DNA from: Leptolyngbya ohadii IS1
GTDB taxonomy: Bacteria > Cyanobacteriota > Cyanobacteriia > Elainellales > Elainellaceae
Direction: 5' to 3'
DNA: 64,000 bases
NCBI RefSeq assembly: GCF_002215035.1
Contig: NZ_NKFP01000001.1
Coordinates: 803,501-867,500 of the forward strand
Part shown: in pieces, positions 22,638 through 26,644 of the stretch
How positions within the stretch are numbered: the first letter of the stretch is position 1
How the letters are laid out: each line of letters begins with the position of its first letter
Notes under the pieces: model-generated
What the model saw: only the letters and a program-made list of their open reading frames with translations
Told to the model about the DNA's origin: nothing
The model's database searches: none
Position numbers and translations under genes: made by a program

Positions 22638-24338
22638 TTAGCCTGCAAAGGTTAATGTGCTTGCCCGCATCGAATTGACCTCAATCGATATGAGATCGGG
22701 TGGGGCATTCGTAATGTTTGAAGTGCCATTCCCGGTCATTAACCGATTGTTGTCGTTGACATGATTTAATCCCAGAACATGTCCGACTTCATGGGCAAGG
22801 GTCCACACGGTGGCAATTTGAGCCACGACAGCTCCAGGACGACCCGCAGGGTGAGATGCACAGCCGTTAAATACGGGAACTGTTGACCGCACAAAGTAGA
22901 CGACTACATCACTGCCCCAGGCGTTATTCCGGTTTGCGAAGAGTTGGGTCTGCTCCGCAGTGACAGATCCAAGCGTGCAGGAGCCAACGTCAACATCATT
23001 TAGAGCGGGTAGATTCAATGTTTCCGTACTTACCCGGTGCACGCGAATTCCTACGGATTCATAGACCTGCTGCATGGCGACAACCATGCGATCGATCGCA
23101 ATGCTGGGGTTTGTCAGAATTTTAATGTGCAAACGCAGAATTTGCTCGCCTAATTCAAAGCGGTTGTTAGCGGTGCTGAGTAACCATCCGCCAAAGCGAG
23201 TGCCATTCGGTGCCATCATCGGCACGCTGAAAGAATTACCCGTGAAACGAAAGATACCAATACCCCAAGGACTGGTGACTAAGATATCATCGCGACCATC
23301 CCCCGTGAAATCAACCAGACTGTCAAAGTGGTTATCTGCGGTATTGAGCAACCATCCCCCAAAGCGGGTGCCATTCGGTGCCATCATCGGCACATTGAAT
23401 GTACTCCCAGCCAGTTTGAGGACTCCAATTCCCCACGGGCTGGCGATTAGAAGTTCGGCTCTGCCATCCCCGTCTAAATCAGCGGCGGGTCCGATGCGAT
23501 TGTCCAGCGTGTTAAGCAGCCATCCGCCAAAGCGAGTGCCGTTGGGTGCCATCATCGCAGCAGTTAATGTATTCCCTGACAGCTTCAATACGCCAATTCC
23601 CCAGGGGCTGGTAATGACAATCTCAGCTCTGCCATCCCCATCTAAATCAGCAGCTGTGACGACATGGTTATCTGCGGTATTGAGCAACCATCCGCCAAAG
23701 CGAGTGCCGTTCGGTGCCATCATAATTGCCGTCAGCGTGTTGCCCGACAGCTTCAGAATACCAATGCCCCAGGGACTCGTGACCAGAATTTCGTCTTTGC
23801 CATCTCCATCCACGTCTCCGATCGGACTGAAGCGATTATCTGCTGTGTTCAGCAACCAGTCACCAAACCGAGTTCCGTTAGCAGCGATCGCTGGCACGGT
23901 GATCGTATTGCCTGAAAGCTTAAAAATGCTAATCCCCCAGGGGCTAGTGACCAGAATTTCGGCTCGTCCGTCTCCATCAAAGTCGCCTACTGGACCAAAT
24001 CGATTATCGACCGTGTTGAGTAACCATCCGCCAAAGCGGGTGCCATTGGGTGCCATCATGGGGGCAGTGAGCGTATTGCCGGATTGCTTCAAGATTCCCA
24101 TCCCCCAGGGGCTAGTGACCAGAATCTCAGTTCGTCCGTCCCCATCAAAATCCGCCATCAGGTCAAATCGATTGTCTGCGGTATTGAGCAACCACCCGCC
24201 AAAGCGAGTGCCGTTCGGTGCCATAACGGGTGATGTGAGCGTACTACCAGAAAGCTTCAAAAAGCCAATACCCCAGGGACTAGTGACAGGAATTTCAGAG
24301 ATACCATCCCCGTCAAAATCACTTCTTCTTCGGATCAT
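22638..24338 (-). CDS. Seven-repeat FG-GAP (VCBS-like) propeller with C-terminal metzincin-type peptidase
   Basis: 566 residues from the Met at 24338 (AAGGAG upstream). Residues ~1-395 are seven near-identical 56-residue repeats (168 bp each), each with a Ca-loop (DFDGDGRxEI), LVTSPWGIGIL and NGTRFGGWLLNT. Seven units fit a seven-bladed beta-propeller as in integrin alpha chains. The C-terminal ~170 residues form a zinc peptidase with AHEVGHVLGLNH (metzincin HExxHxxGxxH) and a later Met (RLMTGNGTSN) that may be the Met-turn. It is presumably secreted, but there is no signal peptide or GG leader. A HEAT-repeat gene follows 10 bases later. The substrate is unknown. Confidence 0.85.
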   Translation of the reverse strand: MIRRRSDFDGDGISEIPVTSPWGIGFLKLSGSTLTSPVMAPNGTRFGGWLLNTADNRFDLMADFDGDGRTEILVTSPWGMGILKQSGNTLTAPMMAPNGTRFGGWLLNTVDNRFGPVGDFDGDGRAEILVTSPWGISIFKLSGNTITVPAIAANGTRFGDWLLNTADNRFSPIGDVDGDGKDEILVTSPWGIGILKLSGNTLTAIMMAPNGTRFGGWLLNTADNHVVTAADLDGDGRAEIVITSPWGIGVLKLSGNTLTAAMMAPNGTRFGGWLLNTLDNRIGPAADLDGDGRAELLIASPWGIGVLKLAGSTFNVPMMAPNGTRFGGWLLNTADNHFDSLVDFTGDGRDDILVTSPWGIGIFRFTGNSFSVPMMAPNGTRFGGWLLSTANNRFELGEQILRLHIKILTNPSIAIDRMVVAMQQVYESVGIRVHRVSTETLNLPALNDVDVGSCTLGSVTAEQTQLFANRNNAWGSDVVVYFVRSTVPVFNGCASHPAGRPGAVVAQIATVWTLAHEVGHVLGLNHVNDNNRLMTGNGTSNITNAPPDLISIEVNSMRASTLTFAG

Positions 24339-24566
24339 TGTTAAGTCTCCTTGCAACAGGAAAAACGTTCATCGCTGCAAATGAAAGGATTTGCTTCGGG
24401 ACTTCTTTTGTTTGCAGCAGCCTATAGCCTTTTCCAGACCAACAGAGTACAAGAAATGGGGTGCAGGAGTGAAACCCCTGCGTGATGCGAAGCCCCACAC
24501 CCCCTTTCTCACAAATCATTTGGGATTGCTATATCTCAAATATAGATGAGGAAAATCCGTAAAAAA

Positions 24567-24793: not shown

Positions 24794-25663
24794 ATGAAAA
24801 AAATCTACGTTCAAATTCCAGCCTACCGTGACATTGAATTGGGAGCAACGTTGCTCGATCTCGTTGAAAAGGCAGATGATGCAGACGCCCTTCGCATTGG
24901 TGTTCTTTGGCAACGAGCAGAGGGGGACACGCTGCCAGAGGCAGTACACGCAAACCCGAATACTGAAATTATTGAGCAATCCTACCAGGAAAGTAAGGGG
25001 TGCAATTGGGCAAGGGCTGAGCTTCAGAAGCGTTGGCAAGGAGAGCCATACACATTATTTCTCGACTCCCATCACCGTTTTATTCCTGGCTGGGATCGGC
25101 ATTTGATTGAAATGCATGAAGGTCTGAAGCAGAGCGGCATTCAAAAACCTTTAATCACAGCCTATCTTCCGCCCTATGACCCTAGGAACGATCCCGATAA
25201 CCGTCTACTAGACCCGCTGCAAATCTGGGCCCATAGCCGAGAGCAAGGAATGCTGATTTATTTAATCGCGCAGCCAATCCCAATGTGGCGCACTCTCGAA
25301 AATCCTATTCCTGCCCGGTTCGCTTCACTTCATTTCGTTTTTGCAGAGGGCACATTTAATCGTGAGATTGTTCTCGATGAACAGGTGTATTTTTTCGGTG
25401 ATGAAGTCGTACTCGCCCTCAGGGCATTTACCCACGGTTACGATTTATTCCATCCCCATTATGTGCTGGGGTGGCATCTATACGATCGCGTTGCGACACG
25501 CACAACCCATTGGGAAGATCATTCAGACTATCATGAGCGGAATGAACGATCGTGCAATCGGTTACGCGATATTTTTCTGGGCATCGACGATGAGGCGATC
25601 GGCACTGCTCGCAGCCTAGACGAGTATGAGTTTCTAATTTGTGACAAGTTAATCCGGTGCTAA
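24794..25663 (+). CDS. GT60-like glycosyltransferase (Skp1 GlcNAc-transferase family)
   Basis: 289 residues, cytoplasmic. It begins KKIYVQIPAYRDIELGATL, the family's opening strand. The donor/metal-site region YTLFLDSHHRFIPGWDRHL matches the DSHxRF...GWD pattern of PF11397 (GlcNAc) enzymes, such as Dictyostelium Gnt1, which add GlcNAc to hydroxyproline. GCNWARAELQKRW and a late FFGDEVVLALRAFTHGYDLF with HPHYVLGWHLY also fit. The ATG at 24794 is preferred over a TTG 21 bases upstream. The next gene, a prolyl-4-hydroxylase-like enzyme, starts 3 bases after the stop, so translation is coupled. Together they suggest hydroxyproline glycosylation. Sugar and acceptor are inferred. Confidence 0.85.
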   Translation: MKKIYVQIPAYRDIELGATLLDLVEKADDADALRIGVLWQRAEGDTLPEAVHANPNTEIIEQSYQESKGCNWARAELQKRWQGEPYTLFLDSHHRFIPGWDRHLIEMHEGLKQSGIQKPLITAYLPPYDPRNDPDNRLLDPLQIWAHSREQGMLIYLIAQPIPMWRTLENPIPARFASLHFVFAEGTFNREIVLDEQVYFFGDEVVLALRAFTHGYDLFHPHYVLGWHLYDRVATRTTHWEDHSDYHERNERSCNRLRDIFLGIDDEAIGTARSLDEYEFLICDKLIRC

Positions 25664-25666
25664 ATT

Positions 25667-26272
25667 ATGGCTACCGTTCTAGATGTATTGGAAGAAGAAG
25701 GAATTGCTGTGGTGGATGACTTCATTACTCCACCAGAATGCAGCCTAATGCTGGAAGAACTGGAGTTTACCTACTGGCAAGATAGCGTAGTGGTGAAATA
25801 CATCGGCGATGAAAATTCCCCGGCGTATTTAAGCAGTATGAGAAAGAGCCAGACATCAGGACAGATCTGGTTTAGTGACGAAATAAATGCTATTCTTGCC
25901 TTGATTGAGGAGCGGTTAGCTTGCCTTTTAAATACCACACGCGATCGTTTTGAAGAGTGGCAGGCTACACGATATCAGAAGAACGATAGGTTTGATTATC
26001 ACGTCGATGGTGGCAATTGGGAGCGAACTGCTGCCGGAGAAAGAAAGCGCAGTATTATCATGTATTTAGACACGCCTATTCACGGCGGCGAAACTCACTT
26101 TCGGGCATTAAATAGGACTATTGAAGCCAAAGCTGGGCGAGTCCTGATCTGGAACAATCTTCTACCAACGGGGAAATGCAATTTTGCGATGATTCACGCG
26201 GGTCTTCCTGTTGAGGAGGGGACAAAGACAATCCTTGTTTCCTGGGAACGGGAACGGCGATTGCGTTTATAA
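25667..26272 (+). CDS. Prolyl-4-hydroxylase-like 2OG-Fe(II) oxygenase
   Basis: 201 residues with the double-stranded beta-helix of P4H enzymes. Iron ligands are His and Asp in FDYHVDGGNW and the distal His in MIHAGLPVEEGTKTILVSW. The Lys of GTKTILVSW is the expected 2-oxoglutarate anchor. GGETHF and GRVLIWNN are the other family landmarks. It should hydroxylate Pro using O2 and 2-oxoglutarate in the cytosol. It follows the GT60-like gene by 3 bases and precedes, by 48 bases, a gene for a small protein with X-Pro-Gly sites. It is of the size of bacterial/Skp1-type P4Hs. Other amino acids as targets cannot be excluded. Confidence 0.87.
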   Translation: MATVLDVLEEEGIAVVDDFITPPECSLMLEELEFTYWQDSVVVKYIGDENSPAYLSSMRKSQTSGQIWFSDEINAILALIEERLACLLNTTRDRFEEWQATRYQKNDRFDYHVDGGNWERTAAGERKRSIIMYLDTPIHGGETHFRALNRTIEAKAGRVLIWNNLLPTGKCNFAMIHAGLPVEEGTKTILVSWERERRLRL

Positions 26273-26320
26273 ACAACAAAAGAAACACAAAAAAGAAACA
26301 CAACAAAAGGAGAAGCCAAA

Positions 26321-26644
26321 ATGGATACGAACAAAATGAATACGAACAAGATGTCCGATGACGAGATTATCAAAGACATTATTACCCGTTATGGGGAAGT
26401 TATTAACCTGCGTAAGACACCGTACCTGGTTGTTGAAATTCTACGCACCTATGGAGGTGGAATCGTGAATGTTCCCGATGGTGGGGTTTCAGTCGCTGGA
26501 GTCGGGACACCCCCTGGACCTTCAGGTGGCATCAATTCCCCAGGCAATGTTGTGGATAACGTGCAAATCATGAAGGAGATCCTCAAGCTTTCCAAGCAAG
26601 TTGCATCGCTAACAAAGCGCATTGAAAAACTGAGCGGCAAGTAG
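26321..26644 (+). CDS. Small protein with Pro/Gly-rich segment and coiled coil; candidate substrate
   Basis: 107 residues, with no family recognised. Layout: Lys/Asn/Met-rich start (MDTNKMNTNKM, a small duplication), a helical part (about 12-42, DEIIKDIITRYGEVINL), then a Gly/Pro-rich segment (about 46-75) with GTPPGPSGG and NSPG, and a C-terminal coiled coil (QIMKEILKLSKQVASL, TKRIEKL). The PPG and SPG tripeptides are X-Pro-Gly sites of the kind hydroxylated in collagen. AGGAG precedes the first ATG. It is the third gene of the operon after a GT60-like transferase and a prolyl hydroxylase, so it is the obvious candidate for Pro hydroxylation and glycosylation. The coiled coil suggests it oligomerises. 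All of this is inference from context. Confidence 0.8.
   Translation: MDTNKMNTNKMSDDEIIKDIITRYGEVINLRKTPYLVVEILRTYGGGIVNVPDGGVSVAGVGTPPGPSGGINSPGNVVDNVQIMKEILKLSKQVASLTKRIEKLSGK

Follow-up and report, generated by a model that had tools for sequence, protein, structure and literature searches.

Three consecutive plus-strand genes in a 64,000-nucleotide stretch of the cyanobacterium Leptolyngbya ohadii IS1 (C1:803501-867500, part of a 7.9-Mb genome; hereafter the window) encode a PF11397/GT60-type glycosyltransferase (GT), a 2-oxoglutarate (2OG)-dependent oxygenase resembling prolyl 4-hydroxylases (P4Hs) and a small protein (Table 1). We propose, with a probability of roughly 65%, that these genes form a self-contained modification cassette in which prolines in the linker of a dedicated small protein would be hydroxylated and then glycosylated. 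The proposal draws on the linkage of the three genes across bacterial phyla, the conservation of catalytic residues, a Pro-Gly linker in the small protein, the likeness of the GT fold to that of polypeptide transferases and the kinship of the oxygenase to P4Hs. The open reading frames (ORFs) lie where the original prediction, made from this stretch of DNA, had placed them, with intergenic gaps of 3 bp (GT to oxygenase) and 48 bp (oxygenase to small protein). That prediction described a dedicated system for O-glycosylation of hydroxyproline (Hyp); gene co-occurrence and the constancy of the Pro-Gly linker speak for its genomic side, while NSPG as a conserved site, kinship with a PhyA-type P4H and a purely cyanobacterial system have to be given up.

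Conservation and distribution of the cassette

A scan of genome contigs with a GT alignment confirmed 395 GT homologues, of which the best 80 were kept and form the basis of all counts out of 80 given here. The complete cassette, found in at least four phyla, is present at 27 of the 80 GT loci, with a variant form at four loci, a broken one at a single locus and neither at the other 48, bearing out the co-occurrence of PF11397, P4H and small-protein genes that had been proposed as a check on the original prediction. A P4H of the cassette type occurs at 28 of the 80 loci and is accompanied by the small protein at 27 of these 28; at the remaining one, in Rhizobium lusitanum (L122:6870-7639), an incomplete oxygenase match is followed by a frame that looks transposase-like by eye, and the small protein was not found in the whole genome. 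Carriers include Cyanobacteriota (FACHB-502, Nostoc MG11), Bacteroidota (Spirosoma, Aquimarina and one metagenome-assembled genome, MAG), Actinomycetota (Mycolicibacterium and Mycobacterium, Nocardia, Rhodococcus, Arthrobacter and MAGs) and Pseudomonadota (Saccharophagus, a Caulobacteraceae MAG and one further MAG), plus a MAG titled Deltaproteobacteria. The gene order is GT, P4H, small protein, except at L104-L106, where the small-protein gene comes first, and the flanking genes are unlike between distant carriers (25 loci). None of the 48 GT loci counted above as having neither form holds a cassette-type P4H or a small protein, and a broader oxygenase profile returns a single weak match among them (L126, E 0.00025, 4.3 kb from the GT); a missing partner is nevertheless weak evidence at several GT loci, because these are cut by contig ends.

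In a tree of 102 GTs built with a quick method (70 rows labelled as without cassette, L122 among them), the cassette GTs fall together in a branch of 33 rows, with a support of 100 in the Shimodaira-Hasegawa-like approximate likelihood ratio test (SH-aLRT). This branch comprises 28 single-P4H cassettes, the four variants, which group as one inner branch (SH-aLRT 96), and L122, and each of its 33 GTs has a 2OG oxygenase gene nearby, that of L122 being incomplete. Furthermore, the distance matrices of GT, oxygenase and small protein agree (Mantel r 0.944-0.956) over 29 rows, which represent 28 different loci, L276 repeating L119 from the same genome. L124, the GT of which is in two pieces, was omitted from the tree and the distance comparison, and L034 was omitted as the same record as L093. 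A second genome of the same genus (Cyanobacteria bacterium FACHB-502, G026) carries the same trio at identities of 93% for the GT, 92% for the oxygenase and 90-91% for the small protein, with ratios of nonsynonymous to synonymous substitution (dN/dS) between it and the window of 0.074, 0.075 and 0.093, respectively. The idea that the three genes are chance neighbors with no shared function, for which nothing speaks beyond the rarity of the cassette, is ruled out by the recurrence of the same trio on one strand in several phyla amid differing flanks and by these low dN/dS values; we assign it a negligible probability.

The small protein is found in two of 36 genomes of the window's order (E <= 0.01), both of one genus, and its own genome is the only match at E <= 0.001 among 386 genomes of the phylum. 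Weak matches (E <= 1) occur in 126 of these 386 genomes, the best besides the own genome being L053 (E 0.0035), and a further weak match within the window's genome (C6, E 0.136) was discarded, no such ORF being listed there and the match overlapping, by eye, a PadR-like ORF. PF11397 occurs in 19 of the 386 genomes (E <= 0.001), in 17 above the cut-off, and the nine PF11397 loci from the phylum that stand on the tree besides the window all fall outside the cassette clade. The original prediction described the system in a cyanobacterium; with carriers patchily spread over phyla and rare within the window's own order and phylum, a cyanobacterial invention of the cassette is rejected. A phage or plasmid origin is rejected as well: the 80 viral GT loci kept contain no P4H, no small protein and no oxygenase match, the window small protein has no relatives in viral contigs and one plasmid match at E 1, and the proteins of L104, L107 and L114 yield no plasmid match at E <= 0.01.

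Searches centered on other carriers, which started from the small-protein profile so as not to select by GT, return few genomes. In the family of Mycolicibacterium G425 the small protein matches four of 201 genomes, all four with adjoining GT and P4H genes (G425, G430 and G615 were already in the set, and G612 is new), and in the phyla of G431 (1/316) and G435 (1/309) only the centre genome itself matches. In the phylum of G423 the two matches among 296 genomes are G423 itself and G708 (E 1e-4); the latter was judged by eye to be another protein, presumably nuclease-like with a UVR-like end. Within the genomes of the GT loci, the small-protein profile matches 17 of 21 (E <= 0.001), those without a match being the genomes of L122, L114, L116 and L125. 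The searches of the family and the three phyla used a 28-row alignment (A2), and for many genomes scoring covered a portion of the first-look candidates. Since few genomes match the small-protein profile, the cassette is rare and patchy, and the profile check adds little independent evidence.

The small-protein family and its Pro-Gly linker

No Pfam or NCBIfam model matches the window small protein above cut-off, and weak single-member matches to Pfam (best E 0.011) and NCBIfam (best E 0.0029) vary between members and are taken as chance. Its structure model, with a mean predicted local distance difference test (pLDDT) score of 70.0, contains helices at residues 13-24, 35-48 and 80-104 and a linker in which pLDDT falls below 50 at residues 51-63 and 65-76; no useful structural match to this model was found in the PDB (best E 7.3). 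The C-terminal helix gives weak profile matches, some of them to GCN4-type coiled coils (best E 0.02), and on this predicted helix the small protein may oligomerize. The coiled-coil region of the original prediction coincides with the modelled helix, while the two-helix N-terminal domain ahead of the linker had gone unmentioned. In this N-terminal domain one Gly, one Leu and one Pro are kept in 29 of 29 rows (G25, L30 and P34 in the window, invariant in the 28-row alignment).

The linker stands out in composition: the centre of 28 small proteins consists of 28.9% Pro and 20.5% Gly, and Pro makes up 4.8% of the N-terminal and 1.0% of the C-terminal part. A simple rule set the limits of 29 linkers, namely those of the window, of L275 and of 27 loci of L093-L124; a PG step occurs in all 29, a PP step in 25 and at least four prolines in 28. 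The D, G and G of a DGG motif are kept in 26, 27 and 28 of 29 rows, respectively, and the Pro of PGG in 27 of 29, the two exceptions being the window and its sister, with VAGVGTPPGP. The Pro ahead of the last helix, the final Pro of PPGP (P67 in the window), is kept in 28 of 28 rows of the 28-row alignment and in 27 of 29 rows of the other alignment. Several single-P4H cassettes carry a PDGG-x-PPGGVGPVGPTS core once and others have poly-Pro instead, in runs that differ freely in length between linkers. The GTPPGPSGG and NSPG stretches on which the original prediction had centered are both present in the window protein; GTPPGPSGG is identical in FACHB-502, whereas NSPG reads NSQG there and fails as a conserved site. 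The conservation of prolines that had been suggested as a check thus extends to the Pro-Gly linker as a whole and to P67, and not to NSPG or, in the window, to the Pro of PGG. A collagen-like target was considered and rejected, Gly-X-Y runs reaching at most four triplets in one of 31 proteins and at most three in the other 30.

The four variant cassettes, from two Nitrospira MAGs (L111, L112), a Nocardioides (L114) and a Paracoccus MAG (L116), bear on the role of this linker. Their GTs belong to the cassette clade. The oxygenase of L111, L114 and L116 is a 2OG-FeII_Oxy_3 domain joined to a Cupin_8/JmjC domain, and that of L112 (oxygenase-profile match 5.9e-27) is ended by a contig border. A partner protein of about 225-240 aa takes the place of the small protein, and in all four loci it carries PDGG-Pro repeats such as PPDGGPPEPGVPPVGP, the motif occurring three to four times. 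The L111 and L112 proteins match the N-terminal part of the small-protein profile (1.8e-4 and 3e-4), which has no match in the genomes of L114 and L116. No other observation hints as strongly as the repetition of the PDGG-Pro motif that the enzymes may act on the Pro-Gly stretch.

Two other roles for the small protein have to be weighed at this point. It might be a scaffold or adaptor that holds the oxygenase and the GT together and presents other cell proteins to them, rather than their main substrate. Such a role would suit the conserved helical ends that flank the linker on both sides, as well as the fact that 16 of the 17 matching genomes encode the small protein only once (G437 has a second copy, L278), so that it does not have the look of an expanding target family. 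The three to four PDGG-Pro motifs of the variants and the free length of poly-Pro elsewhere fit a target better, however, and we consider the scaffold unlikely. Alternatively, the small protein might be the precursor of a ribosomally synthesized and post-translationally modified peptide (RiPP), with an N-terminal leader and a Pro-Gly core that is later cut out and exported. A small ORF beside modifying enzymes is what such a pathway would look like, and it could draw on the multi-core-like repeats of L111, L112, L114 and L116, on an FG-GAP metallopeptidase gene near four cassettes, the window's included, on a gene behind the cassette in L104-L106 that looks transporter-like by eye, and on the PqqD-like neighbor of a related GT/2OG pair in L050. 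Yet a conserved helical region comes after the supposed core, and in the flanks of the 25 loci, inspected by eye and with some of the genes scanned with Pfam, distant carriers share no transporter, peptidase or recognition element; we consider a RiPP precursor unlikely.

The oxygenase and the glycosyltransferase

The oxygenase matches PF13640 at 5e-10 (40.6 bits, Pfam cut-off 27). As originally predicted, all its iron ligands are in place: H112, D114 and H177 are unchanged in all 29 rows, which represent 28 different loci, together with K187, the 2OG-binding residue. The closest solved chains by profile are 2jig and 3gze (2.8e-25), 5iax (8.4e-25) and 3itq (8.7e-25), with further P4H chains at 4e-24 (7zsc), 1.8e-22 (5c5t) and 8.5e-15 (6tp5); 2jig, 5iax, 3itq, 7zsc and 5c5t are named prolyl hydroxylases or procollagen-proline dioxygenase, and 3gze is named 'Predicted protein'. 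These closest chains are algal (2jig/3gze), Bacillus (5iax/3itq), human (7zsc) and viral (5c5t) P4Hs. In the literature, 3GZE is identified as CrP4H, 5C5T as vCPH and 6t8m as Dictyostelium PhyA (PMC7864055). The latter is matched by the oxygenase profile at only E 0.0015, many orders weaker than the algal/collagen-type chains, and no other PHD-type chain appears at E <= 0.1 in this search of solved chains. Judged by these profile matches, the window oxygenase is nearest to algal/collagen-type P4Hs rather than to the PHD/PhyA type; in the parallel with Skp1 drawn by the original prediction, the pairing of a P4H with a GT60 enzyme holds, and a PhyA-type oxygenase does not. In a comparison with known anti-phage defence systems, the oxygenase domain is also spanned by a match to the PADLOC model PDLC01653 '2OG' (1e-14), which is labelled CRISPR-Cas associated; the window GT, the window small protein and the L095 small protein have no PADLOC match.

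The GT matches PF11397 at 1.8e-50 (172.8 bits, Pfam cut-off 21) and contains the FLDSHHRFIPGWD region from which it had first been recognized. Residues D91, S92 and H93 are invariant across 27 aligned GTs and resemble the DSH motif of GT27; a metal-binding motif of the D-x-H/D type is typical of PF11397/GT60 enzymes. No PDB sequence match was found for the GT. Its structure model (pLDDT 95.1, predicted template modelling score 0.93) has the polypeptide GalNAc-transferases of GT27 as its nearest solved folds (Foldseek E 3.1e-10; Z 20-24), with Z 23.6 and a root-mean-square deviation of 3.3 over 266 aligned residues for GalNAc-T2 and Z 17.9 for the first other family. The window GT differs from these enzymes in its sequence, with an identity of about 10-15%, and in being a single 289-aa domain.

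Proposed mechanism and points against it

For the cassette as a whole, we infer the substrate, its docking, the order of steps, the acceptor residue, the sugar and the role as follows. The small protein would be a dedicated substrate, the N-terminal helical domain of which docks both enzymes and the C-terminal helix of which forms a coiled coil. Using 2OG, O2 and Fe(II), the oxygenase would hydroxylate at least one proline of the linker, after which the GT60-type transferase would add a sugar, probably an N-acetylhexosamine from a uridine diphosphate (UDP) sugar, to the hydroxyproline. The outcome would be a cytoplasmic oligomer whose linker is stiff and glycosylated; none of the three window proteins has a signal peptide evident by eye. 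By analogy with Skp1, its role may be that of a switch in protein interactions responsive to O2 or 2OG, and an O2- or 2OG-responsive cytoplasmic switch is a guess.

Several observations weigh against this scheme. As a bacterial Hyp O-glycosylation system, the cassette is predicted from its genes. Plain common descent of a gene cluster would also give matching distance matrices. The kinship of the repeat proteins of L114 and L116 is drawn from the motif and by eye, because the small-protein profile finds nothing there, and a PDGG-like motif is also present in an unrelated frame of L141, one of the outside loci. The second copy in G437 (L278:3836-4387, plus strand) is a diverged small protein with a PPGPPPPP linker, near a contig end, and the 5-kb stretch examined around it contains no GT or P4H. 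As neither the window nor its sister has the Pro of PGG, no single proline is established as the site. Furthermore, the sugar may not be N-acetylglucosamine (GlcNAc), because UDP-galactopyranose mutase genes lie directly upstream of the cassette GT in L124 (4574-5608) and L117 (4280-5455); galactofuranose may be the donor sugar or a later sugar at these two loci.

The acceptor, too, could be Ser/Thr, because 27 of the 29 linkers hold these residues, often as P-T/S-S. The GT would then act on linker Ser/Thr and the oxygenase independently on proline or another residue, with no sugar on hydroxyproline. Polypeptide GalNAc-transferases, the fold of which the GT shares, have Ser/Thr as acceptors. 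Membership in PF11397 does not imply a Hyp acceptor either, because GT60 includes a polypeptide GlcNAc-transferase of Trypanosoma cruzi (PMC6939170). Against independent action of the two enzymes stand the linkers of L118 and L123, which lack Ser and Thr, and the 2OG oxygenase gene near each GT of the cassette clade, and we hold it to be very unlikely. With hydroxylation followed by glycosylation of linker prolines retained as the preferred reading, the broader picture would be of a patchily distributed bacterial module for Hyp O-glycosylation of its own small coiled-coil protein, in two oxygenase types (a single P4H, or a 2OG and JmjC dual oxygenase with a repeated target motif), serving as an O2/2OG-responsive switch and forming a counterpart of the Skp1 pathway made from different parts; we put this picture as a whole at even odds.

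Features of the locus and other settings of PF11397 genes

The coordinates of the cassette and its neighborhood are listed in Table 1. Promoter- and terminator-like sites are no commoner at the locus than in shuffled sequence.

Table 1. Features of the cassette locus in the window (positions count from the first base of the window).
Feature	Position	Strand	Remarks
GT, PF11397/GT60-type glycosyltransferase	24794-25663	+	289 aa, single domain, ATG start; Pfam
Oxygenase, prolyl-4-hydroxylase-like 2OG-Fe(II)	25667-26272	+	201 aa; PF13640, nearest solved chains are P4Hs
Small protein, candidate dedicated acceptor	26321-26644	+	107 aa; family adjoins GT and P4H
N-terminal helical domain of small protein (residues 13-48), proposed docking domain	26357-26464	+	model helices and 28-row alignment
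Pro-Gly linker (residues 49-78), PDGG...GTPPGPSGG, proposed modification region	26465-26554	+	low pLDDT; P67 codon at 26519-26521
C-terminal helix (residues 80-104), probable coiled coil	26558-26632	+	model helix
AAGGAG, Shine-Dalgarno-like, 8 bp ahead of small-protein ATG	26307-26312	+	direct sequence reading
Possible accessory gene, FG-GAP repeats and zincin-like metallopeptidase region (HEVGHVLGLNH), divergent from GT	22638-24356	-	Pfam

The divergent gene upstream matches FG-GAP and Reprolysin_3 above the Pfam cut-off and is the single match in its own genome. Its C-terminal 440 residues recur in three of 24 further genomes searched (G430, G437 and G612, distant hosts), each time within about 6 kb of a cassette and in G612 as a 109-aa frame, and are absent from the other 21, the same-genus G026 included.

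Two cyanobacterial loci outside the cassette clade also couple PF11397 to a 2OG oxygenase, by fusion in L038 and by adjacency in L050. The former (L038:6912-9164, minus strand, G249) encodes a 751-aa protein with PF11397, AhpC/TSA and 2OG-FeII oxygenase domains, the AhpC-like one in between, and adjoins a protein O-mannosyltransferase-like gene. At the latter (L050:6053-12486, minus strand, G386), PF11397 is fused to NTP_transf_5 next to the 2OG oxygenase, with a PqqD-like protein, an epimerase-like gene and a second NTP_transf_5 protein as neighbors. PF11397 genes were further seen in plasmids of Azospirillum, Cupriavidus, Burkholderia and Paraburkholderia (L083, L084, L086, L087): a fimbrial-domain gene precedes PF11397 in L084 and also in L086 and L087, where the PF11397 gene stands between genes of type VI secretion and RHS genes, and the L083 copy has DUF4255 and tail-sheath genes in its vicinity. 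Viral contigs often contain relatives, with at least 568 confirmed among 600 stretches (80 of them kept, L173-L252), and relatives occur in three Xanthomonas and Stenotrophomonas phage records, the XacN1 copy adjoining a carbamoyl transferase. Lastly, an array of alternating frames, mostly of 65 and 100 aa and with a 624-bp period, lies upstream of a PF11397 gene in G273 (L039:20-6094).

Relation to known systems and significance

To our knowledge, hydroxyproline O-glycosylation has been described in eukaryotes. In algal and plant hydroxyproline-rich glycoproteins the targets are Pro-rich, as in the cassette, and the algal P4H 2jig/3gze is the closest solved relative of the window oxygenase; plant and algal Hyp transferases, however, belong to other families and work in the secretory pathway, whereas the cassette has PF11397 and no evident secretion signal. 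In the Skp1 pathway of Dictyostelium and Toxoplasma (PhyA/Gnt1), a 2OG prolyl hydroxylase and a GT60 transferase together modify a flexible site of a cytosolic protein (PMC6939170, PMC7864055), and the analogy with a response to O2 and 2OG is likewise taken from accounts of this pathway (PMC6939170, PMC7864055, PMC9485057). The cassette resembles it in coupling a P4H to a GT60 enzyme, in adjacent genes in the window and at 27 of the 80 GT loci, and in the lack of an evident signal peptide in the window proteins. It differs in being a bacterial operon with an unrelated small target that has a Pro-Gly linker, with an algal/collagen-type oxygenase and no further GT in the three-gene cassette; the Skp1 family is absent from the Pfam matches of 28 small proteins and from the PDB sequence matches. 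Because the oxygenase is nearest to the algal/collagen type, the likeness to the Skp1 system is one of pairing and not of orthologous P4Hs. In bacteria, the Pseudomonas PPHD, a PHD-type enzyme acting on EF-Tu, provides a case of protein prolyl hydroxylation such as is proposed here, although with another P4H type and another target, and the passages on it mention no GT partner (PMC7864055). In agreement with the original prediction, no description of a bacterial GT60-P4H pair, or of the three-gene system, was found among the papers listed by searches of open-licence PMC text.

The proposed chemistry is therefore known in kind from the Skp1 pathway, and what is new is its bacterial setting, the unrelated target, the other P4H type and the variant oxygenase. 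If the proposal is correct, a cassette that brings both enzymes together with their apparent target would open this chemistry to tests in E. coli, for which three small genes would suffice, and would serve as a simple model for how PF11397 enzymes select hydroxyproline. It would also provide a function for a family of small proteins that Pfam and NCBIfam have missed.

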